From Siphonodentalium dalli (taxonomy: Eukaryota > Mollusca > Scaphopoda > Gadilida > Siphonodentaliidae): a stretch of DNA of 64,000 nucleotides. Position 1 is the first letter of the stretch. Each line of letters opens with the position of its first letter. Positions 23,773 to 55,510 of this stretch are shown here, in pieces. The position numbers and the translations under genes are program-made. The stretch is from contig CP136063.1 in the NCBI GenBank assembly GCA_032622095.1, forward strand, positions 28,832,987 through 28,896,986. The letters are read 5' to 3'. A model generated the notes under the pieces. The model was not told the DNA's origin. It was given only the letters and a program-made list of their open reading frames with translations, and searched no databases.

Positions 23773-24089
23773 TTCAATTATAAAAAACTTTCAAAATGGC
23801 GGAGCCAGAGTTGATCATATCAAATCAAATCAAATAAAAAGAGAGCTATTCACGCTCAAAGTCAAAATTCGAATAATGAATATTTTCAGAAATTAACGCG
23901 GAAGTGAACCTAAACAAATTTGACCAATCAAATCGCTAGTACTAACGGGTTGTCACCCTTAGCGACCTATCATGATTGGATAAAACTATATGCGTTGGAC
24001 CAATGAAACAAAGCGAAACATTATTCCTTGAGGAAGAAAAACAAAATGTCGACGCGGAGTTCAAAGCTTTTCCGAGAAGATTAATCATT

Positions 24090-24956: not shown

Positions 24957-25232
24957 CTCTAATTACACTGGTAAGTCACAACAGCAGAAGTGGATCTGGT
25001 AGAAATTATACCTGGTGTGAATATTAAAGAATATTCATTATTCAAGATGAAAAGTATACATGGATAGTGTGACAATTGATGAGTAACTTGACAGGAAAAT
25101 GTCTTTGCTGGTTGTAAATCAACATGGTAAGATTAATTATCCCACAGCTTGAATAATGACTCATGCTTGCCCAAATCATAGACTAAACCCCAAAAATATG
25201 TACTGATACGCCTTACTTTGAATTTGTTACAA

Positions 25233-25915
25233 GACTTGACCTAGGCGTATAAGAACAAGCATACCAGTATTACACGGCACTGCTGAAAGTTTACGCGTCC
25301 TGCTGTAGATGTGCAATTTGTTTGTGTAACTTGTCCGAAGCGTCGGAGGAGCAAGTCAAACCTACCAAAAGTTTACGCGCACTATAGGTGTACTGATTTT
25401 TTCATGACTTGTCCGAAGCGTCGGAGAAGCAAGTCAGGCTTGACCTATGCGTAGGAGAACAAGCCATACCAAAAGTTTACGCGTCCTGTACATGTGCCAT
25501 TTGTTTGCATGACCTGTCCGAAGCGTCGGAGGAGCAAGTCAAACCTACTGAAAGTGGAGGGGAAAGTCAAACCTACTGAAAGTTTACACACACAACATAT
25601 GTATAAATTTATATATGACTTGTCCGAAGCGTCGGAGAAGCAAGTCAGGCTTGACCTAGTATAACAAGCCATGTTTAATGTGCGATTTGATATATGACTT
25701 GTCCGATGCGTCGGAGAAACAAGTCAATATTATAGTAGTGAATAGCTGTAAATTACTACATTTGCTGTACAATTTATCAGATGACATGTCCAAAGCGTTG
25801 GAGAAGCAAGCCATATATATAAAACCATGTTATGGTATACAAAGTTTACGCACATCGTTGAAATGTACAAGTTGTTAAATTGACTTGCCAAAAGAGTTGG
25901 ATAAGCAAGTAGAAC
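25233..25915 (-). repeat. Array of spaced hairpin motifs in the retroelement leader
   Basis: A motif of the form ACTTG-TCCGA-AGCG-TCGGA-(3-4 nt)-CAAGT recurs near 25328, 25406, 25501, 25617, 25697, 25784 and 25881, spaced about 80-115 bp. Both the inner (TCCGA/TCGGA) and outer (ACTTG/CAAGT) arms are complementary, so each copy can fold. Related but weaker CTTG...CAAG copies lie between them. Spacer sequences containing AAAGTTTACGCG are partly shared. The array sits between the SGNH and gag ORFs. Role unknown. Confidence 0.8.
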
Positions 25916-26173
25916 ACGCCATACATATATAAATTATATATTAGTCTTATACAAGTAACCTCTAAAGCTACTGGCAATAGGCCGTAATCTAGACGTCACG
26001 ACTAAGAGAGTTTGAGGCTTCAAGAAAATGAAAAGCAATATGGAACATAAATATCACAATATAATCATTTTAAAGTTGAAAAACTTTCAACATTCAAACC
26101 GAATAGTTGAATGTATGTATTATTACCACTCACATATGAAGTTATAAACAAACTGGAACCAGGGATCAGCAGA

Positions 26174-26827
26174 CTAATGGTGATTAAGATAATAGAGCAA
26201 GGCTCCCCGGATTCCCCAGTAATATTTCTGTGTTCCCTTTCGGTTAAAGTGGACACCATCACTGAGGAAATGTCTCACCGCCCGCTCTAACCTAGTCTGG
26301 TTCCATAACAGACACCCAGCCCGATCCTCCAAGTAGACCCCGAGCATACGGTTTGTGAGATCTATTCTATCATTCAGAGCCTCCAAAGTCAGCCCAGGGG
26401 ATTTAAATCTTGTAGAAAGCTCTGTTCTTTTGAATAATCGGTTAACAAATACTGCGGACACCCCAAAATGCTCCTGCAGCTCTGACACATAAGACTCTAT
26501 ATCGCTTGAAACTACCTCTGGGCCTTTTGAGCATAAATCATTTGCCCCAACTTGAAGCACCACCAAGTATGGTCGAAACCGCTGCAGAGTTTTTTGCACC
26601 GCGGAATCTGCCCGGAGTTTATTTACCGTGGCCCCAGAACGACCCACCAATCGAACGCACACCTGCCTCGTTCTGATTTTCCCTGCCGCACGCTGTCTGT
26701 GGCTTTTAAGATTAAACTCTCTGGCAAAATTATGCCATAGAGGAAATTTCCGACACCCTGTACCCCCATATAGATGCGCCCCAAAACGTGTTACGAACGA
26801 ATGCCCTAAAACGAGAAGGCGAACCAT
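26174..26827 (-). CDS. SGNH/GDSL-type hydrolase ORF of the retroelement
   Basis: This 217-residue frame starts at the first ATG (MVRLLVLGHSFV). The SGNH blocks are visible: nucleophile serine in LGHSF (block I), a glycine in VRLVGRSGATV (block II), GANDL with the block III asparagine, and SDGVHFN with the Asp-x-x-His pair of block V. Such esterase-like ORFs are known from Ngaro and some CR1 elements; their substrate is not established. The open frame extends about 25 codons upstream into repeat A1 without an ATG. It is the first ORF after A1, ahead of gag. Confidence 0.85.
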   Translation of the reverse strand: MVRLLVLGHSFVTRFGAHLYGGTGCRKFPLWHNFAREFNLKSHRQRAAGKIRTRQVCVRLVGRSGATVNKLRADSAVQKTLQRFRPYLVVLQVGANDLCSKGPEVVSSDIESYVSELQEHFGVSAVFVNRLFKRTELSTRFKSPGLTLEALNDRIDLTNRMLGVYLEDRAGCLLWNQTRLERAVRHFLSDGVHFNRKGTQKYYWGIRGALLYYLNHH

Positions 26828-26860
26828 TGCGTGACTGGCAGCAAAAAATATAAAAACTAC

Positions 26861-27256
26861 GAGCAAAGTAAACAGACTTATATATGAATTCGGAGCTAAC
26901 AAAAAGGCCGTGACCTTGTACTTTCCATATTAAGCCGCTTCCGAAATATAGGTCCGTTATCACTGGCACAAGGGCCTTCATTTAATGATTGAATAGTACA
27001 TGGATAACCTAAACAAGAATTGAGAAGAAAGTAAAACCCAGTACTGTTGAGAATTTGTATTCGTGATTAGGGAAATTAACATTCATGTATCACTGAGCGC
27101 ACTTTAGTTTAGTGAAAGCGCTTGCCCGTGTTAATGACGTATGATCTTGCATCGGTTCTATTTTTAGTTATATAAACACTGGGGTGCACCTGTTCAATTA
27201 CGGATCAGTGTGGCATGACTCTGAGGGATAAATGTGTCGCTGTGCAACTCTGTTTT
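26861..27256 (-). repeat. Split direct repeat A1 (5' end of retroelement)
   Basis: This 396-bp copy of 19368-19763 lies at the 5' terminus of the element on the minus strand. It probably holds the promoter, since the first ORF starts 34 bases inside of it. Confidence 0.9.
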
Positions 27257-34140: not shown

Positions 34141-34503
34141 TTGCTATACTTTGGTTAAAAAAATGTCCGATGAATCTTGTCATGTTAAAACCCGTTGTCG
34201 GGAGGAGGCGATATGAGAGTTTCACTGATGCCACAGTGGTGGAAGATAACCGCTAAGATGGTGGTTCGGTTATGGTGTGGGGAGGGATGCATTTTGACGG
34301 TCGCACAGACATGTTTATCATCCAGAACGGCACCATTGATGCTTAAAGTTATAGGGTGGAATTCTAGACCTGTTTGTGCGACCGTTTGCAGGTACCGGTA
34401 CTATAGGTGCATATTCCTTTCTGGTAGAAGATACCACCAGACCACACTGAACCAGGCTTGGGAAACGTTGTCTCAAAGAGGAAGGAATCAAATGCATTGA
34501 TTT
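34141..34503 (+). pseudogene. Tc1/mariner-like transposase relic, 5' part
   Basis: In scattered frames the conserved Tc1 landmarks are readable: SDES (first catalytic Asp region), GGSVMVWGGMHFDGRTDMF, IIQNGTID, then a VEDTTRPH segment matching the second catalytic Asp region (usually QDNARPH), and EEGIKCID. Stops and frameshifts show it is dead. It stops abruptly at 34503, where the giant element begins, and resumes at 54268. Confidence 0.8.
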
Positions 34504-34800
34504 CCCAAGAGAAAATAAGACCAAAATTTCAGTGAAATTTCAGTGAAATTTCACTGAAATTCAGTGAAATTACCAAATTTTGGTGTTATTTCACCATCTC
34601 AGTGAATTTCACTGAAATTTCGGTGAAATTTCACTGAAATTTCACTGAAACTTATTTTAACTTTTCCAGTTAATTTCACTCAAATGATAAAATATTTTTA
34701 AGTGAGATTTTGAGTACTTTTCAGTTTTAAATATAAAATTTCACTAAAAAATGATAAAATAGTTTTCAGTGAGATTTTGAGTACTTTTCAGTTTTACTTC
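34504..34800 (+). repeat. Left terminus and subterminal repeats of the giant element
   Basis: After the 13-bp end, TTTCAGTGAAA and TTTCACTGAAA (mutual complements) recur about eight times to 34652. A second pair of blocks (GATAAAATA-TTTT-AGTGAGATTTTGAGTACTTTTCAG) follows to about 34795. Confidence 0.88.
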
Positions 34801-35178
34801 CAGTAAAGGGATATTGCATATGAAGGGATCATGCATATGAAATTTTTATTTATCAATGGGCTACATTTTCCATTATCGGTAAGATCGTGTCCATATTATC
34901 ACAATCAAAGACTATATATCTTGTGCGGATGACATTTTCAATTACTCAAATGAGAGGATTTGGTAAAATACAGGTAAAAATAGAGAGTGAATGTCAGCGG
35001 ATATTTGTTTATATTTTGGCTGTCCTTGTTTACATTTATGAAAATTATGAGCAGTTCAGACATCATGTTCCCCCATTTTCTAGAAGAAATAATAGTTACA
35101 TATAGCTCTTCCAGAAACGAATATCACTTCATTAGGACATTGAGGTGTCAATTTATGTTGCTGAAATATGATATGGCT

Positions 35179-38100
35179 TTAATTATGCTCCACCAGATTT
35201 GGTGGTACAGACACAAAGGTCAGGTTATTCCCTATTTCCATGTAGACACACTTCTTTACGATATAACTGACAGGCACAAGTAGAGTTTTTATGTTCTTTG
35301 ATGTCACTTCATGAATGTGAGAACACAGAGAATGTGATGTATTCACATAGGCACTGAACTCTGAAGGGATTGGTGTTCCAGGTTGAAACATATCAGCAAC
35401 CTGAATTGTTTCTACAACAGCAAACAGATTGTCCGAAAAACTAATAAAATATTTGATGAAAGCAAATGTGTTGTCTTCAAGCAGGACAGTATAGGAGTTT
35501 TCTTTTGTTCTTTTGTACTGCTGGCATGTACAGATTCCTATCTTTGTCCTCAAGCGGTGAAATTTGTAGATTTTCCCATGTGCATTATCGTATTTGCTCA
35601 ATACAACATCCATAAACACATGGTCATTACGGCTTGGTTTGAAAAGCTGCATTTTCCCAAGCGCAGATTCTGTTGTATCTTGATTTTTACTGAAATCGGA
35701 CATATATATAAATGCATTACTTTATAGTAAGAATCATAGAATTTCAAATTGTTTAGTGAATGCATGTCTATGTGGATTATTGTCAATCGAACGTCATTGA
35801 CAATGTAGTTTGTTACACTGTATTAAGCGTATTTGTGGATTATTGTCAATCGAACATCATTAACACTGCAGTTCGTTACACTGTATTAAGCATGTTTGGG
35901 GATTAATGTCCATCTATTGGATAAATGCCACGCAGGAGTTAGCCATCGGTAGAACCCGTCATTTTGACGGGTCATCCCCTAGGATGAGACTATAAAATTA
36001 AATGGTTCATCATTTAGGCATGGACTCATATTGGTCTCATTTCTATGTTGTTCAATGTTCCAAACATTGGTTCATTGTTAGAATAGTGATGTACAACAAT
36101 AAAAATCATTTGTTTAGTAAAATGAAACTCCCAACAAAAAAAAGAAACTCCCAACAAAAAAAGTTGATTTGATATGCTTGAAAAATGTTATTACCCAACA
36201 AAGCTCTTAGATAAACGCTCTGCCAAACGTTGAATGTCTGTTTCTGTTTCATCTTGAAATTTCTCTAACAATCTTGGAATGGCTTTTGCCATTGAGTAAG
36301 CAAAACTGACCTAAAAAGCCAAAATATGTAAATTTCAAGATATAAGCACTTCCTTCTTGTTATGGTAATTTGAATGATCTGTTTTCACAACTAGAGACTA
36401 ACCATTTTTGGCTATATACTGCACCATAACGGCTCAAATTCTTGGCTTTTTTTAATTTAAATATCCTTGTATCAAAATAAAGTAATAGTTTCAATTGGTT
36501 TTGAGGATCACTATAAATAATTCATGAGAAATTAGGCGACGTCAGGAAGAAATGAGTGTAGATAGTCCATGAGCCTCTTACCCAAATGTCTCTTGCATGA
36601 ATTTTTAACATAATCCTGGCCTGTGGTAAACAAATTATGATAAAGGTCATTCAAGAAGCAGAATATATCTGTCAATAGGCCAAATAAGAGATATTCATTC
36701 ACCAACAGATTTGCTCTTGTACATAACAGTAACATGTAATACTGACCTGGCTATTTATATAGCGAGTTCCATGCACCATCCGCTTCAAATATGAATTCAT
36801 TGATTCAAATCCGAAACAGGAAGTGGTGAAAAGTGGTCCATACATTTCCACAAACCGAGGTAAGTCTTGGAGTAGGTGAACGTTCATTGTTTCTTGATAG
36901 GGTCCTGTAAAAATTTGCAATGCTTCAGTTCGTATATAAAGGGTTATTATTTGGTATAAATATGTGTGACAAAAATAGGGTACATGTATGTGAGAATATT
37001 TAACATTGTTTTGAGTACGTCCTTCAAATTGGTAAATATTTTTGTTATTTTACCTTATGTTATATCAAGGAGTCAGAAATAAGAGGAAAGACCCAAATAT
37101 ATTTGAGAACTGAACAGTTCATAAAAGCTGCTTTTGTTTGTTATTCTGGGGCCCATCTTAATTTTGTTCTTGCCAATTATGATGAGTGTTATTAAATAGA
37201 TTGTTCATTAATTACTAGTATATTTAAAACCTCTATAATAAGACTATTACAATCATTGGAGTTAAATGTGTTAATTTAATTACATATTAAAGCTTGTAGT
37301 AGCATTGTATGCTAGTTATCATTTACTTTTTCTCAGAAGAACTACCTACAACTTGTGAGAACAGACCACTTGATAAATAATCAATTACTGAATACGTACC
37401 ATAATATTCTGAGAATAATTTGCTGAAGTGGATAAGAAGTTGTTGTGCATAAACAATATCACCACCGTGTATTTGTTCCTGATTGAGGAGAAATAGTGCA
37501 GTCACCAACATTCCATAATGACAGTAATGTGCAACTGGCAAAACATCTCTGAGAACTGGCATTGAGAAATGCAGAAGCCATTCCCGATACTCAGTTGCTG
37601 AAAAAAAAAAAGAATAATTATATTACCAATTAAATACATGGCACCAAATTTGACCTTTTTTTGGGAAAGCTAATAAATATGTTCTTGCCACAGATCTTAG
37701 CTGCTGACCGCAGTTAACCAGCTAATGAGGCCATCCGTAATAGATTTTGTGTTTGCCCTCTCCCTACCGTACATTTTCAGGGTGGGTACATGTAGTAGGT
37801 GGGTACATGTAGTAGGTGGGTACATGTAGTAGTTAGGTTAATTCTTTTATTTTTAAAATATAGATGAATAATTTAGATAAGACGTATGTACGTTAAAGCA
37901 GCACATTTTTTATTGATGAAATGTTACCTTTCCAGTGGCCATGGTCTTCAAGGGATCTCTGTTTGCGACATATGAAATCTGGTATCTTTATCTGGAGATA
38001 TCTTTTGTTTAAGAGGGATATCTAAAATATTATAGAAAACAGATAGTGATACGCATCTGCAAATCGACTGATATTTGTGAGTGTACTTGAAAGCTTTAAC

Positions 38101-41100
38101 TCAGTATTATTTCTCCCAAAAATATATTTGTTATTTAAAGTGATGTGAAACACTCTGTGGGGTGAGCAAATAGAAATGGAGAATAATCTTGTTCAAAGAA
38201 GTTATTTTTACAAATATTATATCTAAATTGACAACACACAGCCGTCATTCTTATATATTAATTAAATGCAGTGACTGCCGATGGCGAAATCTTTTTCGTA
38301 AGTTTAACGCCGATAAAAGCGTCCAGATTCGAGTGGTAAATATTTACAATTTAGCGTAATTTAGACAATGTTTTCTATGGAGTGGTACGGTCGATTTGCT
38401 TGAGATTCCCGGTGATGTTAGTAGAATGCTATATTCCTCCAGTTGGCATAGCACCCGAATACTAACTTATCAGTTTCACGCACCCAAAACAAGTACATAA
38501 TATGTCTTTAAGTCATTAAGATACATGTAAGTGTGCGGATAATCAACAAAAAGTTTTTCATAATAGGGCTGAAGGTAACTTAAGATATTATTATTACCTT
38601 ATTACCAATATAGAAAGCAGAATTTTTGTGTTTCTTTCCCAACCAAAGCTTTAGAAGACTCTTTGTTACTCCCAGGAGTACTCCGTGCATCCAGTCAATA
38701 GCAAATATTGTCGGTAGACGGATATAACTCAGCAGCACTAATGGTGATGCTCCTTTTATACCACGAACCTGAAAGAAGTTTAAACTAGGTTAATCTTCTA
38801 AGTCAAAATTCTCAATATCTCTCTAAATAACACATGGTTCAGATGTTCTCATAATGGTTCTGATGCATGCCAACTTGCCAAGTTTGAAAACAAATAAGGG
38901 AAATAAAGTTCCGGACCAAAAATTAAATGTAGCTGTAATACAGAATTTTGGAGAAAAAGTAAATAACTCAATCAAAATAAGTCAGATTGCCATTGGTTTC
39001 AATATCGTAGGTGCAGGGCTCCAAATAATTTATATAGTCATTAAATTCCACCCTGCACTATTATTTGGGTCAGGTCTGTATTTTTATTAAATTTGGCAAA
39101 AACTTCCCCCTACGTACACTTCTATTTTGGGTCTGAACTTTTATTTGGAGCCAAGAGTAGCATAGGCAATAACACTTACAGCATTTTTAGATTGTACAGC
39201 TTTCATTATATCACTGATCCAACCACTGTGTGTTCTTTGTTCATTCTTCGAATTGAATGGCCAATACCTGTGCAGACTGTTTCCAGGCCGCGTTTTCCCC
39301 CTCATGAAGACATATACTACATCCAAATTTTCCATTGAATTGTTTCATGTTTGATACCATAGCTCTTGCGGGAAGATCCATTGTCGTCGTCAGCAAATGG
39401 GCTCTCAGTAGACATACCCCGCTCTTGGTAGTAACTCGAATGCCTGCAAGATAATGGTGACTTTCCAAACTTTCATACACACTATTTAACACCCCGGGAA
39501 CCGGTATTTATTTTCTGGTACCGTATAGTACTGGTACGTTGGTGTGTCATCTTCTGTTTAGTTGCCCCCCCCCCCCCCCCCCCCCCCCCCAAAGAAAGAA
39601 ACTTGGTATGTGACTGAATTGACTCTCAATGCACATGACATGTAGTATGAATCTGGGCTCGGTTGTACGTCATATCAAATATAGGAAGTGTCATCCCGAT
39701 AAACCAAAATTTCATGAAAATGAGATTAGAAATACGGGCTGTAGCCAAAGCAAAGCCAAAATACTGGATGTAGCCAAAGCCAGACAGACGTCAAGTGACA
39801 ACACTACATGTACATTTGGTCTTCTAGACTTCTGTATTGAAAAGTGGCTTTTAGATCAACCTCTAACTACAAGTAGTTACCTTTTGCTAGAATGTTCAGC
39901 GTATCCATCAAAGGAGTCATGTATGTTTGCATATTTGGTTTCTCTGTATGACAATGTAGATGGGTAGCCAGTATGAATTTTTTGGAAAACCTGAAAAATA
40001 TATATATTTTTGGTAAACGAACAACAAATAAACACGTATGTCTTGTGTTGTTAGAATTAAGAGTTTGTGAACGTGTGACAATCTTCCTGCGCTTACCTGA
40101 CCTTTTATAATCAAAATTTATTGAATAATGGTGAAACGCAAATACATGTAATGTAATGCGGTGATAAAGTTTCGTACTATTACGGTCGAATAAGCAGAAT
40201 GCACTTATTTGGCTATTCAACCTTATACGGTCATCTAAGCAGATGCTCTTAATTGACGGTCGAATAGCCAATCCCAATATAATATAAAAACATATTTACA
40301 TACAACATGTATATACAAACCTTTTGACTATCGGAATCTCATTTATCGCAAGATATATGGGCCACAAGCTGCCTTTTTTTGATGAAGTGAACAGCGCAAC
40401 ACCATCTGAAAAAATAAAAGTAGAATTATTGTATTTTTATATAAACATTTTATATACATTCGATACTTCATTTAATATCGTCATACATGTATACATGCAC
40501 TTTCAATAGGATAAGATTGCCATCTCATTTTCGCTAAGTTAATATTCTGAATTTCATTCTTTTGTTATTAAAGTTAAAACATAAACAAGTTTTATGGAAA
40601 TATTATACATGTACCCTCCTCTCTTTGCATGCCATCGTTACCATCTTAAATTCATGTTCATACACATACATGTACAATATATCTGTTAATTTAAATGACA
40701 TTATGTTACATAGTCTAAGAAGGATTTACAGTTTACTATAAACATGTAATACATTAATACATACATATACCCAGTATGTGAGATGTACCGTACATGTATG
40801 AAATTATGAAGATGGGTCATGGAAGCACCCGAAGTATTTTAACATCATGTGTTAAAGTTTAGTTAAACACACAGTGTACATGTACCTGTATTTAACGTGA
40901 ATGTTAAATTGATGACATCTTCTTGTTCTGGCAATGAAATTCGCCTATACTCTGATCCATCAGTAATATCGGATATCAAAGAATCATCTCGATTATGATT
41001 TCTCTTTACTGCAGAATAAATTTCGTCATCTGCAAAAAAGATCAACCTTTGTACATGTGTAGCACTATATATGAATGGTTAACGGTACACTCGAAGTCGG

Positions 41101-42520
41101 AATACAAGCTGTACTTGTAATTAATTAATTAATACACCCCCCCCCCCCCCCCCAAAAGGAGAGCAGAATTATATGTGTGATATTCAGATTTTATTCAACT
41201 CGTTTGATAAATCTGCCAATAAACAATAGTGTGTGCAGCTTACTCCATGATCCAGCAGGAAACTATTGATTTGAATAGATTTTTTTTCGAATCGATACCA
41301 TCATCGCACTTGAGTTCAAATGTTTTTTGGATTTAACTTTTCTACATTTCAACACATTTGGACTTTAGTGTGAAGGAGCGGTTAGAAAGATGATTCACCA
41401 CAAGCCACACCTTATATTCCAATATACAAGTAACTCGTTAGAAAAAAATCACTCTCAGGAAAATAAATAATAGTGATGGCATTTTCGCTATTTGTTCCAC
41501 TGCCAAATAATAGTGCTCTGATCATATAGTCTGATGACTATTTTTTTTAAATTAATAATCTGCCTAACTATTATTAGGCAGACGAGAGTCCCAACATAAT
41601 TATAGATATATGTTACGTTCTATATTTAGAGTGTAAAAACATCTTACCTTGCAAAAGACCTTTCAGCTGTTCGATGATATTCAAGTCCATGAACTCATAT
41701 GTCTTTGCATCATTTTCCTGACAAACTGGCGATGAACAAATTCCTGTTTCATTATCAATCAATCCATTGCATAGTTCACAAACTTTATACCGCTTGGGTA
41801 TTGAGAAGGAAATTTCTTTTTTCAAGACTTCTTTCAATCTGTAAACTGATGACACATATCTATTCATAGTTTCAGCAGGTAAATGTGACCGGACTAAGAT
41901 GATAAGGTCTGAAAACTCTTCTTTGGAAATAGAATGTTTCATCGCAAACAGCATTAGCATGATATAGGACTGTGAATAAGTATATTGACATCCACTATAC
42001 AGAGGGTGATCCTTCTCGTTCTCTTCGGACTGAGCATCTTGGTATTCTCTAGCATCAAAAAAATCATCCTGACCTGATAAAATGTCATCTCCATCCTCGT
42101 CTGACGTGTCACTAATACTGCTACATCCACTTTCTGATGATGTGATAGTGCTACCGGTAGATGATTCATCGGAAATTGACATTTCCAAAGTTGAATCAGT
42201 TTCTGAGTCAGTATCAGAGGTACATGTAGTTGCTGAACGATTACTAGTATCATTCCCACCCATATCTGGCAAATAAGCCAAATTGGCATGCGGCAAATGT
42301 GGGTATTTCAAGTGCATCTTGCTTGTAATAGTTAGCAAGTCTTTTGTTTACTCCTGTATGGAGTGAACGTTTGTACCTTCGTTTTCTTGGTGTTGTATAA
42401 TTGTTAAATGCACATTCGTCACCCGAGGAAGAAACGGAATCGGTAGGACTCGGAGAAACACTATCACTTTCACTAGTTTCAGACTCTGTTTCACTTGAAG
42501 TTGAATATATTCCCGCCATG
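35179..42520 (-). CDS. DUF4218-type (CACTA/EnSpm-like) transposase, 11 exons
   Basis: Exons (minus): 42520-41648, 41029-40886, 40405-40321, 39990-39881, 39443-39180, 38768-38598, 38021-37928, 37597-37400, 36904-36747, 36310-36195, 35689-35179. Every junction is GT-AG and the reading phases agree, giving about 907 residues. The start is the ATG of MAGIYSTSSETES; an acidic Ser-rich N-terminus follows. Then come a zinc-ribbon-like CELC...CSSPVC, KPNMQTYMTPLMDTL, DLPARAMVSNMKQFNGKFGCSICLHEGE, AIDWMHGVLLGVTK, TMNVHLLQDLP and GPLFTTSCFGFESMN. These match the conserved landmarks of animal DUF4218/EnSpm transposases. Two offsetting one-base frame errors are needed, in exon 1 (near 42300) and exon 5 (near 39275). 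It is divergent from the BEN-like gene. Confidence 0.85.
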
Positions 42521-45500
42521 TTTTGTTCAAGTTGTTGTAATAATCCGGATTTGCGGTACAAAAAAGACGCACATCAACAATGTGACAGCTAACAGTTCAT
42601 ATTTATGGTTATGAATTATTAGTTAAGCTTTTATCTGGAAACTATTCAGCTTGTGGCGTTGATAACTAGTACTGCATCGTCGGGTATTGAGTCACTTAAC
42701 TCCGATGTGATGTCGCATTTTGTTTTGTTTTTGTAGCTGATAGGAAATCGAATCTGATTGGCTAATATCGGGTCACCCTAAAATATGTGCACCGAAGCCG
42801 TTTGAAGCGAGAAACGTTTACACGGAGATCGTCTTGTCTCCTAACCGGATTTTGAGGAGGCCATGCAGTAGGCCTAGCTATGAGACTTAATTGCTCCCAT
42901 TTTATTAGTAAAACGTACAAACAGAATAAATAGAACAGTTTCATAGAATCTGGTAGCCTAACAACTAAAGGCCCTAAATATGAGCCCCCCCCCCCCTTTT
43001 CGTACGCCGGATTCGACCCATTTTGGACCCGTAGGCCGGCCTACGCCGGATTCAAGACACAAATTAAGCTGGATTCCGGATTCATGTATTTATATAAACG
43101 GAATTCCATTTCGGGTGAAATATTGCGATTTGGTTCCTCATTTGGTCATAATAGATCATAATATCATGAATTGTATATGGGATCCAATATGATGCACACT
43201 CTTATAGGACTTATATAGTCCGTATATATTCGTTTGTATACGGTGCTCTTTATCTTTCCGGTCATTATTTGCGGCAACATATCTCAAAAATTGCCCCAAA
43301 GACATAGCAAAACAACTTGGATGATGGACTGCCAATTATATTTCCGTGAAAATGCGCTGTGGGCATAAACTTAACCCACAATTAAAAAATATGTAGGCCT
43401 ATATGTTATATTGGGCTACCATCAACATATAAACAACGGTAGGCCTACCTCCGATGGCTTGTTAAAACAATATAACCTTGCCAGGATAGTGTGTGGATTT
43501 CAACCATGCTATATGTAAAACTGTTTACTCTCCGACACTTAGCTATATCATCAAACACATTAATTCAAATGGCGTTTGTTTGGCGGTTTACATGCGATGT
43601 GTTAAGCATGATTGTTAATATTATTATCTGGGACCCAAGCGGCCATATACACGCATGCATATACATGGATGTGTATTGTTTGACTACCAGTGGATATATA
43701 CATATTATCGGGGGCTCCAACTCCCGTGCTACATGCATATATTTATATATCAAAATCAATATGTAATCATCGATTAATCCCCAATTTTCTAGTGGAGCGT
43801 GCGCATTATGTTATTGATCTGTCCGACCGTCTGTCCATCCATCATTCGGTAAATTGGTTTATATGTGTGGTGGCTTAAGATACGTATCAACTTTCTAAAC
43901 TTAATTTAGTATTTGGGTTTTCTAACACAGAGTGCAGGTCGAAACCACGTGTTCGATGACCGCCGGCCAATTTCCGCTATAGAATAGGGTCCCCTTTTTT
44001 TGGGATTTCCTTCCATGTGCGTCCCCATGTGAGGGCATTGGTAGGCCTAAGTCCAAACTTGTTTTACTGGGATTATACTGATCCGGTGCAGGTTGGGTTC
44101 GAGTTTGGAGTCCACCCGAGGGTTTTACATGTGTTATCACATCGGGGTATTAATTCTGGGTCAATATATCACGCCCATATAAAGAGCACTTAATTTATTA
44201 GTTTTTACACGGGAATGTGATAAAGATCGGTTAATCCAAGGAAGTCTAGACGCATATTCTATACCTTTGTTACTCTTATCCTAACATTTTGTAAACTATC
44301 GCAAGGTAGACTGCTCTGGACCTCATTGGTGAAGTTTCCACTACCGGGGTTCAAGACGGGGGTGCCTTTATATGTGGGACCTGCTCATAAATTATGGGTA
44401 TCACAAAACTAATCTATAATATCATGTAGGGGAGACCCGGGCAAAGCGGATCACGTAAGGGTTTCTTGAACAAAATGCAACCGGCAATCAGAATTATTAG
44501 CACTGTCAGTTTCTAATCATGATGGCATAACATTTGACGGATGATGCATTAAGATACATCTATTGGTTTGGTTGCTATGGTGATTTTTAATTTTGATCCG
44601 CTTTACCCGGCCGTTTGGGCAAATCGGATCACCACATCGGGCAAAGCGGATCAGCAAACGAATCCTTCTGAAAATGCAATAATTTTCAACTATTTATATG
44701 CTTTTTAGTTTTATTTATTACAATAATACATATTTATCCCAAAAAATTAATACCGCGTGTTTTCAAACGTTCAAGTTTATCAATTATGGTCATGCTCCGA
44801 CAAGGCACGAGTTTTGTCGATACATCGGACTAAAATTGTCCAAATTCACTTAATCTACGCATGTGTACCGGAAGTTAGTCATGTTATGAATGATCCGCTT
44901 TGCCCGATCCGCTTTGCCCGATCCGCTTTGCCCAGATCACACCTTTTTACAGTCCGGCGAATTACGCGCGTGTCCTATCAAATATAGGAAATTGACATAT
45001 TGTCTTATTCCACATATATATTGCCTAAGACACCGACAACATTTATTCGGGTAGATGGGTATGTGACCATCGATCTGCGCAATAGATATGCGCAAACGCA
45101 CAACAATTACATATTTGGTAAAATCGTAAAATGTCGACGAAAATGTTCTAATGGGCTACAAAATTTTAGTATACCTAGTTCTCTGTGGAAATGTATAAAA
45201 ACTAACCAAACATAAAACTATCTTATTCTAAAATACGGATAGAATCGGAATAATTTTCTAGTATTGAAATAATAAAGGTGATCGGCTTTGCCCGGGCGAT
45301 CCGCTTTGCCCGGGTCTCCCCTAGGCCTAAACTGGACGTGAAATCGGTATTTGTTTCTTAAACTGGATTCCGGATTCCAGGGTCAATTTGAAGCTGGATT
45401 CCGGATTCCAGCGTCATTTTAAAACTGGATTCCGGACTCAATGGGGGGAGGGGGAAGGGGCCCTCCTAAATTAGATTCTATCTGTCTTGCAAAAATGATA

Positions 45501-45850
45501 TTACCAATTATTAATAGGCCATAGACGAAAAATAAAGTGACACTGACTAAAACAGACAAAGAACGACTGCATGTCATAATTATGTGGTAGGCTACCAAGC
45601 GTCCACATTATTGAGGTACCACATTGTCCCGTGGATAACAATTAAACGTCCATGCATGCAGGTACCGGTACCATCGTCCAGAAACCATGCACAACTTTCG
45701 ATTCAGGGCATACACCTTTTCTATAAGCCGGCCTTCCGTACAACTTTTAGCGTGTCCCTCTTTTCGACCAATCAGAATCTTCCTGCAACTCACGAGGAAC
45801 TCTTGGAAATTTGGCGCATTTTTACTAATTCCAAAACAACAACAAAAACA
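42521..45850. other. Region between the two divergent genes of the giant element
   Basis: This should hold the two promoters. Most of it appears to be a nested non-autonomous insertion (about 42969-45466) with C-run/G-run ends and repeated CTGGATTCCGGATTC motifs near both ends, itself invaded by the MITE at 44429-45321. The segment TTATGGGTATCACAAAAC near 44392 also occurs at 16852. No gene is supported inside. Confidence 0.5.
44429..45321. mobile_element. TA-flanked MITE with GGGGAGACCCGGGCAAAGCG ends (893 bp)
   Basis: Both ends read GGGGAGACCCGGGCAAAGCG inward and are flanked by TA (44427-44428 and 45322-45323). Internal GATCCGCTTTGCCC copies are repeated in tandem near 44889-44935. TA duplication suggests a Tc1/mariner-type mobiliser. 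No coding sequence is supported. It is inserted in the intergenic region of the giant element. Confidence 0.85.
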
Positions 45851-48800
45851 ATGGCAGTGTTTATGAAATATGCGCTAATGTTATGGCATAAGGACACACC
45901 CATCGGCGGAAATATTGTAAAACTGTCCGATATAAAAGAACCTGATATCCCAAACAACGATTACAGTGTTGGTGATCGAGTTTTGGTGCCACTTCGTGGG
46001 TTTGGAGACTGCTTTGGTACCATTGGAAAACTTGCGGGTGAGTTTATTTACGCCATTCATATGATCCGATATGCATATTCTACGAGCAATTGCATCATTT
46101 TGTCATGACTAATGCCCTGATATATGAAATTATATTTCATAAAATGAAACGACCAAATATCCGATTGTCATTATTCAAATTTATTGTGTATTAAAACTGT
46201 ATTTATCGACGGACAGAGTAGGCTATTATTAATAATATAATGATAATCATGTCTATTAATTATATGAGGTCCAGTAGGTTGGGGAAACCTTAGGCCAACA
46301 AAAAACCAAGATACTATGTTTCCGTACATCGACCGACCCTAAAAATAACCCGCCGACCCAAAACTTTTTATTGATATTTTGAGAATTTTTTTTTTTTTCT
46401 TTCACTGTTTAAGTGTTTTAACCAGGGGGGGGGGGGGGGGGGGGGGGGGGTGAAAAATTTTCCGGCACGTATGCCGGGGTGGGTGGGTGGTCAAAGCCAC
46501 CAACAAGCAATTTTTTCCTCAACTAAAAAAAAAAAATTCTGCTTGTTTTTTAGTTAAAATTGGGCTTCAAAACCACTTTGAATGAGAGAAATAATGTAAT
46601 TCTAACTGTAAACTGACTGCAGGCAGATATCGTGTTGTATTTTGTTGCAAATTTTGAAATCCAAGATGGCCGCTGCCCGCTGGCAGCCATGTTTTTTTTG
46701 GCCCGAACGACCTCAAAATGACTCATTCCTATTTACATGTCCATGTTAACATCCATGATAAATAGTATATGCACAGAAATTCATATACATCTGTTTACAG
46801 TGAATTTCCACCCGCAAAAAAAAATGTGGTATGTGAATAATAAAAAACATACTTAAGCATGAAGTAAGTTTGATTCTTTATCAATCTTAATGTATATTTG
46901 GTCGAGGTAGTTCAATATTTCTGCAGCTGGATAAAAATTATCGAAATAAAAAAAAAAAAATTCCCTACCTACCTACCCTAATTTTTTCGCGCCGCTACCA
47001 GTAAATACCATCAATATCTGTCAATATCACAAGAAAAGGCTAAATTTTTGGTACTAATTTTAAAAAAAACGAAACAATTGTGATATTGTCCCTGAACATA
47101 CCATACGATAAAATCAATTGAAATGCAAAAGTTCTTTTGTAAATTTCTTGCAGAAGAGAAGGACAAAGAAGCTCTTCGTGCTATATTGAATACCAAGGAA
47201 TTCTCAAAGATTGTTGAGGCTATATGTATTGGCAGTAATGGCAGAGGCACAAATTCTCACCCAAATGTAAGTTGTAAATCATTGTGTCTTGTGTCCCTTT
47301 AATATTGTCTACTTTGGCTTATTTTGTTCCAGGTGCCTGTGGCTATTATCTACGCATTATTTGTTTCTAAAATGTTGAGTTATACTGTTAGACGTCTAAA
47401 AAATGTCTGTGTGCTATCTGGGGTCCTTATCTCTTTGCTAACACAAGTCGTCTATGTCATTTTAATGGAAAAAAAACAATTAAAATATATCAATTCTTGT
47501 TAATATTCCATATTTGTTTCTAGGATGAAGAGCCTGGCGTTCGCGATGATACAGCAGACAAAGTTGTCGTTAAGAAAACCATTCAAGAACCTGGCGTTCG
47601 CGATGATACAGCAGGCAAAGTTGTCGTTCAGAAAACCATTCAAGAGCCTGGCATTCGCGATGATACAGCAGACAAAGTTGTCGTTAAGAAAACCATTCAG
47701 CCTGGCGTTCGCGATGATACAGCAGACAAAGTTGTCGTTAAGAAAACCATTCAACCAGAAAATGTGTGTACATTTTAATTTACATTTACATGTTTGCCCA
47801 CTTTGCCGGGAATATATTTCTGAGAAGGGCAATCACCCTCTATTATGAAGGCCCTCATGCAGTTAATCTTAAAATATCCAAAGTTTCGGGGGAGGAGAAA
47901 TGCTCAATGTCTGCCTTCCCGTCATGCCATGGCAATTTCCCTCCTGGCACAAAATTAGGGAAGGTGGCTACTGCCCTCCTGCTATTTTTGAAAGGACATC
48001 CCAGGATTATGATTTTTGTAAACACAAGAAATGTATATACCGTATGTAATATATGCATGTAATAATTTAAAGAAACTTGTTTTATACATTTAATAGTTCT
48101 AGGAAAGAGACTATAATTACTGTGGCAAGGATTGTATTTTGTAGTCACAGAGAGTGGTGTGATGTCATTGCACACGACAATATGACACATGTCTTATTAT
48201 ACGCTCTGGGGAATTTAATGTGTTTCTTGTGACAAATGTAAATCAATTAGAATATATCCTGAAAATCAGAAATAGAGGTGTTAATTAATATAACTCATTT
48301 TTGCAGAGGCTTGCAAACCAGATGAAAACAAAAAAGACTGAAAAGAGAGCATTAACTGATGCCGAAAATACAGACCAAGAGGTATTTCCAATTATGATTC
48401 ATGAACCCATTTATGACTGAATGGACTTTCCTATTCAATTCTAAAGAGATGTTACATCAATATGTTCCAAATTTATACGGTACTGTATCAAACTTTTCAG
48501 GCAACACTAGTAATTTCCACAAAGACCTACATGTAAATGTGCCAAATATGTTGAACTTATATATCTCAGAAACTAAATTTTCGGTATACATGTACCGGTA
48601 TGCATGCCGGCATCAAATTGGACCGACGAGCACTACATGTATGTTAGGGTTGATAGTATCAACTTGATACAGATACGTATCACAATACAACGATACAATA
48701 CATATCACGGTATGCAAAAACCATGTTTTGCAAGAATTTTCTACCTAAATTTCGTGAAAAACATTAAAATATCCCGCTATTTGTAACGACATGATGTACG

Positions 48801-51800
48801 TGTATTCACATACCGGTACTTCTATTATCCAGTGTATAATATAGCACTGCATTAATTTACAGTTTCCATTATTGTATCTATAGGCAAAGAAGGCAAGGAA
48901 GGAAGATAATTGCCTAAAGGGGAAAAAGGAAAAAAGTAGAGAGCAGATGTGCAAAAAGTTATCAGAAACTTGGTTGGAGAAAACTGCTGCCAGGGTGAGT
49001 TAATTATTTGAATTTATTTAATAGTACATTAATGCGGCTCAAGATTTGTTGTCCAATAAGTTACAGGTACCGGTATGTAGATATACAGGGATTATTTTTA
49101 TACGCCCCTTTTGAAAAAAAGGTCGTATTATGGAAATGGGGTTGTCCGTCCGTATTTGGTTTCCAGATGATAACTTTAGATTAAATAAGAGTGAACTGAA
49201 CCAAATTTGGAATGTTAGTTTACCACACAAAAAATACAGATCAAGTTCGAATATGGGTTTCGTCCGCATGATTTTGACTAAGTTATGCCCCTTTTTCGAA
49301 TTACTGGATTTGCAGTTTACGGATGATAACTTTTAGATTGAATCAATTGAACTGAATCAAATTTGGTATGTTAGTTTACCACACCAAACACAGATCAAGT
49401 TCGAATATGGGTTTCGTCCGCATAATTTTGACTGAGTTATGCCCCTTTTTCGACTTAGATTTCACCTGATTTGCGGTTTCCAGATGATAACTTTAGATTG
49501 AATCGAGTGAACTGAACCAAGTTTCAAACAAATTAATTAAACCTTGCCCCACATTACTCCAGAAAGGGCGTATTGTCCTCACGCCCTGACGGCGTGCTCT
49601 TGTTTATTTTGCAATATACAACAAAAAAAATCATAATTTCACTATAGAATTTCACATTTTAAACTCGGACACTCCACTCCCTGTTGGTGGATACCAAAGT
49701 TGATGAGTCTTCATTTGGTGATGGTACACCTCAATTGTAATCCCAAGTTAAACTTCACAAAACTCATTGTAATCCCAAGTTAACAAAAATTTCTTTTAAA
49801 ACTTTGTAATCAGTTAAATATTTAAGATGGGAGAACAGGCTGTCAGTCTACTGATTTATTTTATAATTCATCATTTTCAAACCACAGGATGAAAAGCCTA
49901 AGCAGAAAGCCATACCAGAAAAAACTCAGACTTCTGCTACCCCACAGACGTCAGCAGAAAAGTCACCCCAGACTCAAGAATTAGTGAAACAGGTAAAATA
50001 ATTTTATTTTTTTTACTTGTCCCTAATAATTTGAGGAGAAATGTTAAATCAAGCTAGCTAGGTCATATGATATTTCACATTTCATATTAAAGTCATCTGA
50101 TCTAGACTGAATTCTGATTGCACTGACGTAGTAAATGGAATAAAATATTGGCGAGTTCAATTTTCCTCTTGACAATCAGGGACCCACCCCTAATTTATAA
50201 AATATTTGAAATATTTGGAAGTTTGTCGCAATTGAAAATTCGACAAAAGCTGTTCGATTTTCACTTTTTCATGAATCACATGGAAATCGGTTACATCTGC
50301 TTATATTAGTGATTATATTCTTAGTAGAAGTATCAATGGGGTTAAAATAGTGACCAGATAGCTGATATGTCCTTGTACCCTGGAAGTTTTTGCCAACCCC
50401 TCCCCCCCTTCCCCACTCCGAGTTTACAAGCATTTAAAGATGCAGTACAACTTTCAGTTTTGGTACAAATTAATGTGATGAATTTTGACATCAAGCTTTG
50501 ATATACATGTACCTCCTTACTGACAGACATGTTCAAATTCGTTTTGTTTTATATGTTTTTTATTTTTCAGCTTGGAAATATCGGCCATCTATTAGAGAAA
50601 ACGCTGGAGAAACAGGAGACAATAGACCGCAAGTTGGAGAAAACACTGGAGAAACAGGAGACAATAGAGCGCAAGTTGGAGAGCTTTACAGACTTGCTAA
50701 ATTGCCGCCAATGTTTGCGCTCTAGATATAAGGTATTGTACCCAGCGAACAACAATTTTAATAAAAAGAGTTCGGGATCAATCCACTGTTTTTAGTGTAA
50801 ACAAAGAACGCGCATTACAATAATGATACATGGAAATAATCTGAAAAAAGATATTTATGGTTATAGGATTTTTAAGAAGGTTATTTGGGGGATTTGAAAA
50901 CAAGCGGAATGGTTTTATTATGTCATCTCCCCTGTGATGAATATCCTGAGTGGTGTGGGAACGCAACGTTATAATAATAAGAAATCTGAGTAATATATAA
51001 CCACTCGGTTGTTTGTGTTCCAATTGTTTAGAACTTTAGATTCATTTATAGTTTGTATTTATTATACTCACAACCTCACATGAGAGTATGTAAATACTGG
51101 ATAATTACTCCACCATATTAGATCATGCGGCCTCGATAATTGTGTCATCGGCATCAATCATTTGTGACAGCTATTAACTCTAATATATGAAAAAAATTTC
51201 AATTTCAGAAATTGAATGTGAGGGACGTCATAAATGTGGCTTCAGGTGATGCCTTGCCATCATCTCCCTTGGCGTCACCCATATCTAAATATATGATGTC
51301 GCCTAAGACTCCTGTGTCTAATGGGACACTTCAGACTACTGTGTCTAATGGGACAGTTCAGACTCCTGTGTCTAATGGGACACTTCAGACTCCTGTGTCT
51401 ACAGAAAATTGCCCGTCTCCAGCTCACAATACTGTGTCTACTGAGAGTGACATATCAAATGGCGGTACAAATCCGAACGATTCACAACCGGTCCATGATA
51501 GTGGTGAGTGTAATTTTGATATAAAAAAAAAATTGGGGCTCCATGCAACAACCGGGTTTCAGAATCATGATGCTTATGACCTCTCCAGGGCAGAACCTCA
51601 TTTGAATCGAGTATGGTAAATATTTATTGTCCCCCGAATTTTTTTTTTGGGGGACTATCAAAATCAGCGGTGTCCGTGCATGCGTCCGGAAATGATTTCT
51701 GGATGATAACTTAGCCACCTTTTCGGGAGACACTGTGGTCGGCTGACCTTTTATTCAAATTAAGTCATCTGAGACCCGTATGGCAATGTAATGATTGTAT

Positions 51801-52943
51801 CAGAAAATGTGCCCTCTTTTCCTTCGAAAATGCATATAGGAAAAGCAGAACTATGATGGGGATATAATCAATTACAGGGCAAGTCCATATTTCTCCAACA
51901 GGACCTACTTTTAGTATTACACAATATTCTGGTCATAGAAAAAATTAACAATTTAATCTGTACAATACTACAATGTACATACAGCTACATGTGTGCACAA
52001 CTACACGTACATGTATTCAACGTTGTAGTATTGTGCTTTTGCTCTATTTGTAAATATGCACTTTCGTCCATTGAAGTATGAATATTCAAACAGATTTTTC
52101 TCCCTTACAGATCTAGTTAGCATTGGAGAAAGCATCCATGGAGTACGGATGAAAAGGGATGTTTTCGATCGTTGCCGTAACACAGCAAAAAATGCAACGA
52201 AATATGGCTTAAATTTATTGGAGAAGTTGGTTACGAAGGAGGAGTGCGGGCATTCAGAGAGGAGGATGACGATATATGGGGATGCCAAGGGAACATACCC
52301 TTTGGATACACATAAAAGAAGAGCTATTAGAAGTAAGTACCGGCATAATTATTTTCACTCCCCTACAAACTCCCTTTCATTTAAAGTGGCATTGTCAACT
52401 CTTTTAAAAAAAAAAACAATATTCCTCCAGTAAGTGGGTATTCTGTTAATTGCCAAACGAAAGTTAACACACTATAGTTGTGATAACGTCAACAATTCTA
52501 AAAAAAATCCAAAACCACTGGACCGATTTGACTGAAATTTGATATGAATTTTCCTTGGGTGACTTAAATTCATGCTTGAAAATTAGGGACTGCTCTGCCA
52601 ATAAGGGGCCAAATAAAAGGCACATAACTCTATTTCCATTCTCAACTCTAAAAAAAATCTTTTCACAGTTCTCATGCAGGACTGAAATTTGGATTTGGAT
52701 ATTCCTTGGGTGACCTATGTTCATTTAAACATGCTAATTGTGAATTGGTTAAGTGATTGGCGCATGCATGATGAATACAATAATATTTCATTTTGATCCA
52801 CTTTAATTTCAGGCCAAATATTTGCTGAATTCCATCAAGACGCCAGCAGTGTCCAACAGGAAGCCATTTGGAAGTCACTTCTGGGTCCCCTGAACAATAA
52901 AATTCGGGGTGTAAGAAATGGCAACTACAAAGATCTAAATTAA
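45851..52943 (+). CDS. Coiled-coil and BEN-like-domain protein of the giant element, 10 exons
   Basis: Exons (plus): 45851-46037, 47154-47266, 47524-47763, 48307-48381, 48884-48994, 49888-49992, 50571-50732, 51209-51503, 52111-52332, 52813-52943. All junctions are GT-AG and all phases agree, giving 546 residues with no internal stop. Domains in order: a possible small barrel (YSVGDRVLVPLRGFGDCFGTIG); four 19-residue repeats around EPGVRDDTADKVVVKKTIQ; Lys-rich segments; a coiled coil with LEKTLEKQETI duplicated; a Ser/Thr-rich linker with repeated QTPVSNGTL; and a C-terminal BEN-like domain (about 430-546: LVSIGESIHGVRMKRDVFDRC, LLEKLVTKEE, HKRRAIRSQIFAEF, IWKSLLGPLNNKIRGVR). BEN domains bind DNA. 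Inferred role: the partner that recognises the subterminal repeats, analogous to plant TnpA. An upstream frame from 45584 lacks domain character; I chose the ATG of MAVFMKYAL. Confidence 0.8.
46260..47000. repeat. Intronic low-complexity and dispersed repeat
   Basis: This lies in the first intron of the BEN-like gene. It contains a 26-base G-run near 46424-46450, GACCGACCC and CCTACCTACCCTA motifs near its two ends, and a GATGGCCGCTGCCCGCTGGC block. Probably a nested element. Confidence 0.5.
49090..49610 (+). repeat. Intronic repeat with GATGATAACTTTAGATT units
   Basis: Three imperfect units of TTTCCAGATGATAACTTTAG and AACTGAACCAAATTTGG lie between ACGCCCCTTTT (49103) and GGGCGTATTG (49566). 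The ends look weakly inverted. Non-coding. It interrupts the intron between exons 5 and 6. Confidence 0.6.
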
Positions 52944-52985
52944 TATTATAAATATGGAGCTTCCTGAAATCTTGCGAAAACCCAG

Positions 52986-53056
52986 TGCCAATGCAATCTC
53001 TTATATATGCGAGTCTCCCATAGAGAGACTTGCATATATAAGAGAATGCACTGGCA
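52986..53056. repeat. Hairpin with the shared CCAATGCA-TCTCTTATATA arm
   Basis: The arms TGCCAATGCAATCTCTTATA and its complement surround a short loop. The hairpin core is shared with the TTAA MITEs. A downstream GGGGTTAA at 53098 could be one end of such an element, but no matching left end was found. It lies just beyond the BEN-like gene stop codon. Confidence 0.75.
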
Positions 53057-53113
53057 ATGAACTTTAATGCTGCACCAGGGGAAACTCCCATCATAGAGGG
53101 GTTAAACCAGTCC

Positions 53114-53119
53114 AAATAA
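53114..53119 (+). promoter_or_regulatory. Candidate poly(A) signal AATAAA of the BEN-like gene
   Basis: AATAAA lies 171 bases after the stop codon, downstream of the hairpin. Confidence 0.4.
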
Positions 53120-53900
53120 AGGACTTATTATTCACATATTTTACCAAGCTTCTTCTAGAATTATAATATTAGATCGAAACACTGAGAAGCGCACAATATG
53201 CATGTAACAAGTTTTATATAATTCCCTAGGTATAAAATAATAAAAATGAATTAACCGATGACCACTGTCTGGAAACACTTCTATTAATTAACATTGATTT
53301 TATTTTGAATTTTCTGGTATAATAAACCTGCATGCTTATAATTAAACAATTGGATTATGGTAAAGTCAGATAAATTTCATCGTTTAGAAAGTTTCTGACA
53401 TTAATTCAGTTTATATGCACATGCATCTTTTAGAATTAATGTATTGTTAAACTTGTCCACAGTTTCATGGATATTTATAGAATTTGATTTGAACAAACTA
53501 GTAATGTTTACTGGTAATTATAACTGGTAATGCATGTAACTGGTAATTAATTTAATGAAACTTTTGATTCACATAAACCTGATCCAGTAATTTGCTTAAA
53601 ATGCTAATTATGTTGATCTATATATATATGCACATATCTTGCTTGAGCTGTCTTATTCATGTCAGTTCATTTCATTAAATATATTTACATTTCATATATC
53701 CTTGTTCCATCTCATTGACCAATGCGGGCCAGCATATACAAAGATCGACACGTTATACAGTAAAATCGAACTGGATTTCTCAGTTCTATATAGGGTTGAA
53801 AATTTGACATGTGATACAGAACAAGGGTATATATAGTACAAGAAATGATGGAACCATATTGTGGTATGGGTTTTATGTCTATTCTGACTGAACTTTTCAA
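53120..53900. other. No gene; right internal flank of the giant element
   Basis: AT-rich non-coding sequence between the BEN-like gene and the right subterminal repeat array. No features recognised. Confidence 0.4.
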
Positions 53901-53924
53901 TTGAAATAATTTATATTTCAGTAA

Positions 53925-54267
53925 AAATTTTGAGATTTCAGTAAAGTTTTGGAGATAATTTGACTCAAGTAGTGAAATTTCACTGAAATTTTGGTGAAAT
54001 TTCACTGAAATCTTGGTAAAATTTGACTAAATTTTTTACTGTTATTTTGGTGAATTTTTGGTGAAATTTCACTGAATTTTTGGTGAAATTTCACTGAAAT
54101 TTTGGTGAAATTTCACTGAAATTTTGGTGAAATTTCACTGAAATTTCGGTGAAATTTCACTGAAATTTTACTGAAATTTTGGTAAAATTTGACTAAATTT
54201 TTTACTGTTATTTCAGTGAAATCTCAGTGAAATTTCAGTGAAATTTTACTCAACATTTTCTCTTGGG
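53925..54267 (-). repeat. Right terminus and subterminal repeats of the giant element
   Basis: A dense array of TTTCACTGAAATTTTGGTGA-type units, about twenty copies or partial copies in both orientations, is followed by the inverted end ATTTTCTCTTGGG. The array is longer and more regular than the left one. Confidence 0.88.
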
Positions 54268-54430
54268 TTACCAGCGGTATCATACAATCTCAAACTCATA
54301 GAACATGACTGTGTGAGGTTGTAGACTGTGTGACAACTCGACACGTTCAACAGACATCTCTGCAAGAGTTGGACCAATCTCTGGTTGGGGAATGGATCTA
54401 ATCGTTTATACCAGATGCTTTCTCATTTTC
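54268..54430 (+). pseudogene. Tc1/mariner-like transposase relic, 3' part
   Basis: It begins LPAVSYNLKLIEHD, which aligns with the WPxxSPDLNPIEHVWD block carrying the third catalytic residue. It then shows a decayed C-terminus with QLDTFNRHLCKSW-like sequence and stops. It continues the relic that ends at 34503. Confidence 0.8.
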
Positions 54431-54439
54431 TGGCATACA

Positions 54440-55510
54440 CAATCAGTCTGGTGTAGTCTATATCGAACAGGTTTATAATAGTGCTGGTCGAGCACAACAG
54501 ATTCATTGTGGCAAGTGCGATGAGCCATGTTCCCCGGTCTGGTATAATCCGACCTGTATTATATATAAGAAACACCATCAAATGTAGCAGGTACATAATG
54601 ACATGTATGATGAGCCTGTGTAGTGCACATATGTGGAAGCTATTGTCATATAGTGACCATAATTTGATGCAACAAATGCATACCAAACATGTTGGCTAAT
54701 ATGAATCGATATAATGCCCCAAAAGTCAGTTTTAAGCTGGATTTGTTAAATTTCATGATCGTTTCTTATGTATTTCTAAACGTGTCCCTAAGTGCACCTC
54801 ACTAACAAAGTGGTAATCATCAGAGGTATGTTAGCAACTCATGGTCATATTGTCGAATTTGGAAGAAAATGCCTTGTTACATTTTCAACTCAAGTACGAT
54901 GATGTGGAGAAAATGTGCCATCTGACATGACACATTGTTCGAATTTAATGAAATAGAGCTATTCGACTGATCAACCATCTACAATTTGAATGGTTCTGCA
55001 AAAATGTAGTTAGTCTTGTAACAGAATAACACGGATGTTGTGTTATGAAGTACTCATTGCTTAAATAATTGGTTTTCACTTTCAATGACAACAGAGCTAT
55101 TTTAATCACATCCGACCGAAAACTGGCTGAACAAGGGCATGTAATCCTTGGTACATTCGAATTATACACATTCTATTGATCTATTATACATTAGACACAC
55201 CCTCTTAATTTGTTTCTGTCCATATTATAACGTTAAACTATTATGAAGGTAGTCACAGCAATGCAATGAACCGCTTATGGTGAAACTACTTCCAGTACAT
55301 ATGATAGTATATTTTTCATATATTTCTTATATAAGCATCCTGAGATTATCAAGCAGGAACATTGTGGCATGTAACATTAGCCTGGTGTAGCATATGCCAA
55401 TATGTTATCATGTACAAGAATCACAATATCATATAGCAGGTACAGAACAGCATAATCATGGAGCTGATTTAGTCAAATCGGACATGTTATCATATAACAA
55501 TCTTACTTAG
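54440..55510 (+). repeat. Minisatellite-related units, right flank
   Basis: Units with GTGTAGTCTATATCGAACA and GCGATGAGCC (54440-54620) and GCCTGGTGTAGCATATGCC (about 55378-55500) match the array at 32935-33405. The remainder is unassigned and non-coding. Confidence 0.6.

Follow-up and report, generated by a model that had tools for sequence, protein, structure and literature searches.

How did 19,764 bp of DNA carrying two genes come to lie within a Tc1-derived repeat of the scaphopod mollusc Siphonodentalium dalli, and what machinery could move an insert of this size? The insert lies in a 64,000-nucleotide window of contig CP136063.1 (positions 28,832,987 to 28,896,986 of assembly GCA_032622095.1), the whole stretch analysed here. 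It is flanked by a TT duplication (34502–34503 and 54268–54269) and bounded by 13-bp terminal inverted repeats (TIRs), CCCAAGAGAAAAT on the plus strand at 34504–34516 and its reverse complement on the minus strand at 54255–54267. An earlier, sequence-only reading had described inverted ends flanked by a TT duplication, together with matching subterminal arrays, all of which we recover, and had proposed that a giant, recently mobile, CACTA-like animal element split a Tc1/mariner transposase relic. Our results indicate that the insert is very probably an animal DNA transposon that moves by cut and paste and belongs to the CACTA-related (TRC) kind; the two-gene mechanism proposed below is a likely one.

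The flanks provide the most direct test. Removal of the insert and one TT joins the left part of the repeat (34197–34503, plus strand) to the right part (54268–54560, plus strand, tested to 54560) as ...GIKCIDLPAVSYNLKLIEHDC..., and these 694 joined bases were searched against the window's own genome (2.2 Gb, 9 contigs). With 40 of 90 candidates scored, the counts are lower bounds: the joined flanks have at least 43 matches, at least 35 of which are single alignments crossing the junction (22 of them span query positions 97–694 at 94–98% identity), the remainder being the window's own two halves and six matches lying entirely on one side. Each of the five close paralogs fetched agrees with the joined sequence at every base for 20 bp on either side of the junction (40/40) and carries a single TT, one of them having a deletion farther to the right; a sixth, diverged paralog matches at 26 of 40 positions and is gap-free beside the junction. 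The paralogs of the target repeat thus prove that insertion occurred by transposition and that its boundaries are exact to the base. The proposed splitting of a Tc1 relic holds for the junction, across which the relic read-through aligns gap-free to Sleeping Beauty (E 0.004, with X at stops and one frame switch picked by the analyst); a Pfam search with this read-through returned nothing. The proposal does not hold for the nature of the target: the sole paralog translated (L051) has in-frame stops at the same places as the window relic, which suggests that the insert hit an amplified, already dead Tc1-derived repeat rather than a one-off pseudogene.

The ends also recur elsewhere in the genome as paired boundaries. 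The 13-mer has 188 exact matches compared with 16 for its reversed control, and a search of the first 100 of the 188 places for plus/minus pairs within 25 kb gave at least 14 end pairs, namely the window, one within a repeated array (C1:111.46 Mb) and 12 fetched elements. Identical 2-bp flanks were seen in 11 of the 12 fetched elements (GG, AA, AA, TT, AT, TT, AT, TG, AT, AA and GA), the exception being AT/AA; the locus L020 has two right ends, and the flank was taken at the outer one. Together with the window (TT) and a copy on C8 (GA), identical flanks are present in 13 of 14 elements, for which a composition model gives a chance of ~1e-14. Target duplications are 2 bp long and of no fixed sequence (TT, GG, AA, AT, TG and GA). 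Among the first eight 13-mer loci, L001–L003, L006 and L007 do not match the family, and L008 matches the array weakly; L021, compared over 200 bases with the short element L010, does not match it and has no match at the protein level either, and L022 was compared by protein search only. The 13-mer also occurs at regular spacing, as in satellite-like arrays, at C1:111455523–111471726 (~2.36 kb), part of which has no long match to L010, and at C3:211554975–211556203 (~0.6 kb).

Most of these elements are short. Eleven of the 12 fetched are derivatives of 1.58–2.07 kb with no match to either protein of the element. The twelfth, L018 (7,644 bp), fuses element positions 1–4938 to 16967–19764 at 98.5% and 96.7% identity and is, judging from this alignment, an internal deletion derivative retaining both ends. 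A second full-length copy, on C8, is 20,234 bp long; its target duplication is GA, and its left end carries a single mismatch. In aligned blocks it differs from the window copy at 68 of 15,307 non-coding bases and 7 of 4,146 exon bases (Fisher p 0.010), a low divergence that points to recent movement of the family, as had been proposed, while the fewer exon changes make the exons look constrained, on few changes. A copy on C4 has no gene 1 match within the 23 kb fetched and aligns in part with exon 3 of gene 2, and the gene 2 matches at C3:64.7 Mb and L042–L045 are only partial.

Gene 1 occupies 35179–42263 on the minus strand, where manual splicing at GT-AG introns gives 12 exons: 42263–41648, 41029–40886, 40405–40321, 39990–39881, 39443–39180, 38768–38598, 38021–37928, 37597–37400, 36904–36747, 36620–36582, 36310–36195 and 35689–35179. 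The start codon is uncertain, and the 39-base exon at 36620–36582 is doubtful because it is missing from 15 of 15 aligned relatives, leaving 11 or 12 exons. The product matches Transposase_21 in Pfam (44.2 bits, cut-off 28.6; 1.6e-11); DUF1258 falls below the Pfam cut-off, and DUF4218, the type that had been named for CACTA/EnSpm transposases, gives no Pfam match at E ≤ 1. There are 27 database protein matches, the best from Solemya velum (51% over the residues searched) and others from coral, amphioxus and Corticium; the relatives named are animal proteins, which fits the proposal of an animal element. Within the window protein, NTDG, DLPARA, GCSIC and FGFE correspond to the D, D, C(2)C and E positions of CMC/CMCT transposases, using the motif order given in PMC12730594 and the RAG1 residues. 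The predicted model of a 51%-identical relative has a RAG1-like core, with the RAG1/Transib fold, and a BAH-like C-terminal tail. The last exon of gene 1 (35179–35689, minus strand) encodes the region aligned with this BAH-like domain, and on the strength of the model such a tail is likely to be present in the window protein.

The window copy of gene 1 has one frameshift, in the fifth listed exon, and may therefore be non-autonomous by itself. The frameshift is absent from the C8 and L018 copies, and gene 1 is open over the listed exons in the C8 copy. An intron of 22 or 30 bases at the frame break was considered and rejected as too short, L018 and C8 being in frame there. Gene 1 is found at window-family identity at three places (window, C8 and L018), and the genome holds at least 49 other transposase matches (a lower bound, with 54 of 502 candidates scored) that are 29–38% identical. 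Many of these are single-exon open frames of up to 926 residues, e.g. at C6:151824825–151827233 and C4:118230604–118233075, in contrast to the intron-rich gene 1.

Gene 2, the proposed end-binding partner, lies on the plus strand at 45851–52943 with ten exons (45851–46037, 47154–47266, 47524–47763, 48307–48381, 48884–48994, 49888–49992, 50571–50732, 51209–51503, 52111–52332 and 52813–52943) and a frame of 546 residues that is open in the window copy; in the C8 copy, exon 9 is broken. Exon 3 is a coding minisatellite of four 57-bp copies, and one intron contains a 154-bp tandem repeat (49159–49524). A BEN domain proposed by eye was discarded: Pfam gave none, searches of solved structures gave nothing, and, against a BEN profile built on Insensitive, Elba1 and BEND6, many of 2000 shuffled controls outscored the gene 2 domain. 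Modelling the greater part of exon 9 by itself with AlphaFold gave an unusable result (predicted local distance difference test score 45.6).

Beside the two ends lie arrays of TTTCASTGAAA palindromes, at 34524–34650 on the left (mostly 11-bp spacing) and at 53972–54259 on the right (11/22-bp spacing). All 14 exact sites in the window fall in these arrays, six on the left and eight on the right; allowing up to one mismatch there are 29, of which 11 are on the left, 13 on the right and five elsewhere. Exact sites begin 23, 34, 45, 103, 125 and 136 bp from the left end and 24, 46, 102, 124, 146, 168, 257 and 279 bp from the right end, so the arrays match, as claimed, in having similar offsets, and their mirror symmetry is imperfect. 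Within clusters, adjacent sites mostly follow one another at 11 or 22 bp; as 11 bp is about one helical turn, the sites would lie on one face of the DNA.

A second family was reached through gene 2, a search with which gave 14 further loci at 38–41% identity over the C-terminal part. The three that were read are 89–99% identical to one another in long blocks, and two of them terminate in ...GATATTTTCTAAGGGG, which reads CCCCTTAGAAAATATC on the opposite strand, with the ends adjoining arrays of TCCC...GGGA palindromes of 23-bp period. This 16-mer end has 29 matches in the genome compared with none for the control. End pairs bound nine spans of about 42.4–50.4 kb, ten further matches being unpaired; at C8:176.0 Mb the right end could be either of two, for a length of 47.7 or 51.5 kb. 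Within every one of the nine spans, ~3 kb from an end, lies a member of the set of 14 gene 2 loci. Two spans share flanks, leaving eight independent sites, seven of which have identical 2-bp flanks when C8:176 is taken with its nearer right end. From the paired ends, the matching flanks and the parts read, we infer that each span is one element. The family is spread across C5, C6, C7, C8 and C9 (e.g. C7:2639767–2682879), and the two spans with common flanks, both of 43 kb, at C6:197.24 and C6:212.81 Mb, look duplicated together with their surroundings because those flanks are identical, pointing to a segmental or assembly duplication.

The span at C7:2.64 Mb (43.1 kb, of which ~28 kb was read) contains exons 30–56% identical to gene 1 residues 464–835; this gene 1 relative runs toward the left end and gene 2 toward the right. 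In the copy at C8:48.7 Mb, whose gene 2 side lacks the shared end, no gene 1 match was found in the 30 kb read, the left 23 kb beside the TIR lying outside it. On these comparisons the sister family seems to share the two-gene plan and to attain about 50 kb, and because gene 2 stands in the same divergent arrangement in the span read, it probably belongs to the core genes of the lineage. Between the two families the arrays differ in sequence and period (TTTCASTGAAA at 11/22 bp versus TCCC...GGGA at 23 bp); palindromes in regular arrays beside the ends are common to both.

To which known system does the element belong? We assign it, with almost no reservation, to the TRC-type transposons. Its Transposase_21 domain, TIR beginning CCC and 2-bp flanking duplication are those of animal TRC elements (SmTRC1, Aedes and Tribolium), which, according to PMC1636069, also have spliced transcripts, as predicted here, and a tandem-repeat region, as seen here; 2-bp duplications were found in 7 of 14 SmTRC1 copies. 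The termini had been called atypical, which is so only beside plant CACTA/EnSpm elements, since CCC ends with 2-bp duplications are the published TRC pattern: here the ends are CCCAAG rather than CACTA and the duplication is TT rather than 3 bp. The three TRC elements with ends described in that source range over 4.5–9.2 kb (4.5, 5.2 and 9.2 kb), compared with 19.8 kb here and about 42–50 kb in the sister family, and the present element differs from them in its two divergent intron-rich genes and the palindrome arrays at both ends. Plant CACTA elements (maize Spm/En, Antirrhinum Tam1 and soybean; PMC2613891) resemble it in their tnp2-type transposase and subterminal repeats, and we count as further likenesses their partner DNA-binding protein and sizes up to 20.5 kb. 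The 20.5-kb soybean element differs in having CACTA ends and a 3-base duplication, and in Spm and soybean the partner is spliced from the same transcription unit, whereas here it is a separate divergent gene. As reviewed in that source, TnpA binds the subterminal repeats and is needed together with TnpD. A literature search on size found the enlarged En/Spm families of the red alga Chondrus crispus, which are 16–20 kb with more than one open reading frame (4–5) in PMC6431247 and are set beside our element by description only. Precedents exist in these sources for the kind, the ends and the 20-kb size; in searches of literature listings we found no naming of a BAH domain in a CACTA-type transposase, nor of a BEN domain with CACTA-type elements. 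We judge as new the separate divergent second gene in two families, the 42–50-kb spans and the RAG1-plus-BAH-like transposase, a judgement for which the literature was searched for BAH and size, with no search for a separate divergent second gene.

RAG1/RAG2, ProtoRAG and Transib share with the element a RAG1-like core fold, as seen in the relative's model, and a chromatin-reader-like domain, which is BAH-like here and a PHD in RAG2. They differ in their 5-bp duplications and in their ends, and here the reader-like domain is fused to the transposase. Mirage elements are known to duplicate only TA, a rule not followed here, as no TA is among the 11 matching dinucleotides. The same TA-only rule is given for ESTA in PMC12730594.

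Paired ends, a varied 2-bp duplication, a transposase with a relative modelled as having a RAG1-like core, and deletion derivatives with both ends form the basis of our reading, and the second gene accompanies the transposase in two families of very different sequence. In the mechanism that we propose, the gene 1 product would cut at the CCC ends and join them to a staggered target, giving the 2-bp duplications. The gene 2 product would bind the palindromic subterminal sites, mostly 11 bp apart on one DNA face, and would help bring the distant ends together, by analogy with TnpA and TnpD in maize Spm/En. The BAH-like tail may steer the transposase to marked nucleosomes, a chromatin-reading role that we put forward only tentatively. 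From the gene order and the change in the arrays, we are inclined to see gene 2 as the end-binding partner.

Several observations weigh against this reading. Neither full-length copy read has both genes open; complementation by other copies may make up for a single broken gene. Both the BAH match and the RAG1 match come from the predicted model of a relative, and the last exon in the window has no Pfam BAH match at E ≤ 10. The gene 1 relative was seen in one sister element and only in its second half. Gene 2 has no recognised domain in the searches made and no protein relative at E ≤ 1 in searches of 75 and 3972 candidates, which would suit an alternative that we consider possible without favouring it, namely that gene 2 is a passenger, antisilencing or regulatory gene kept for the lineage's own expression and outside the transposition machine; fungal relatives of the superfamily carry passengers such as TET/JBP (PMC12730594). 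Against this alternative, gene 2 of the sister element read is positioned and oriented with respect to the transposase as in the window, despite ~40% C-terminal identity, and the change of subterminal motif between families with retention of regular palindrome arrays is the expectation for a co-evolving binder.

A further difficulty for our two-gene reading is that the CMC/CMCT H(3–4)H motif is altered in the window family: the second His of H(3)H is Asp in all three gene 1 copies (window, C8 and L018), whereas all 25 aligned relatives, like the sister element at C7:2.64 Mb, have His at this position, so that transposase activity may be impaired. The family could then be dead, its recent copies having been moved by another transposase, for which the additional transposase matches in the genome offer candidates. 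We regard this as unlikely, given that the gene 1 frame is open in the C8 copy, that the exons are less diverged than the rest, though on few changes, and that use of these ends by transposases of 29–38% identity seems doubtful. An assembly or segmental duplication artefact, of the kind suggested by the C6 sister pair, can be virtually dismissed: the exact single-TT empty site in five of five close paralogs refutes it for the window copy, and flanks differ between elements while the 2-bp duplications match in 13 of 14.

Two other features of the window were interpreted by eye. Frames of reverse transcriptase, RNase H-like and phage-integrase type, with a GDSL hydrolase frame, lie on the minus strand at 20724–26929 and look like a DIRS/Ngaro-type retroelement carrying a hydrolase, and a single open frame of 1127 residues with no Pfam match (7195–10575, minus strand) looks like a DDE-like transposase.

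The broader picture, of a 20–50-kb animal transposon lineage built as a two-component machine in which a RAG1-fold transposase with a BAH-type reader works with a fast-evolving partner co-evolving with palindromic arrays, is one that we offer as a conjecture. If true, such a machine would be to animals what TnpD/TnpA is to plants, and in structure it would parallel RAG1 with the PHD reader of RAG2. The locus provides a base-exact, multi-copy animal CACTA-related system in which open frames of both genes are found in different copies, together with deletion derivatives and a 42–50-kb sister family. It allows testing of how cut-and-paste elements of such size bring their ends together, whether those of the animal CACTA type depend on a partner like TnpA, and whether insertion is directed by a BAH-like tail.

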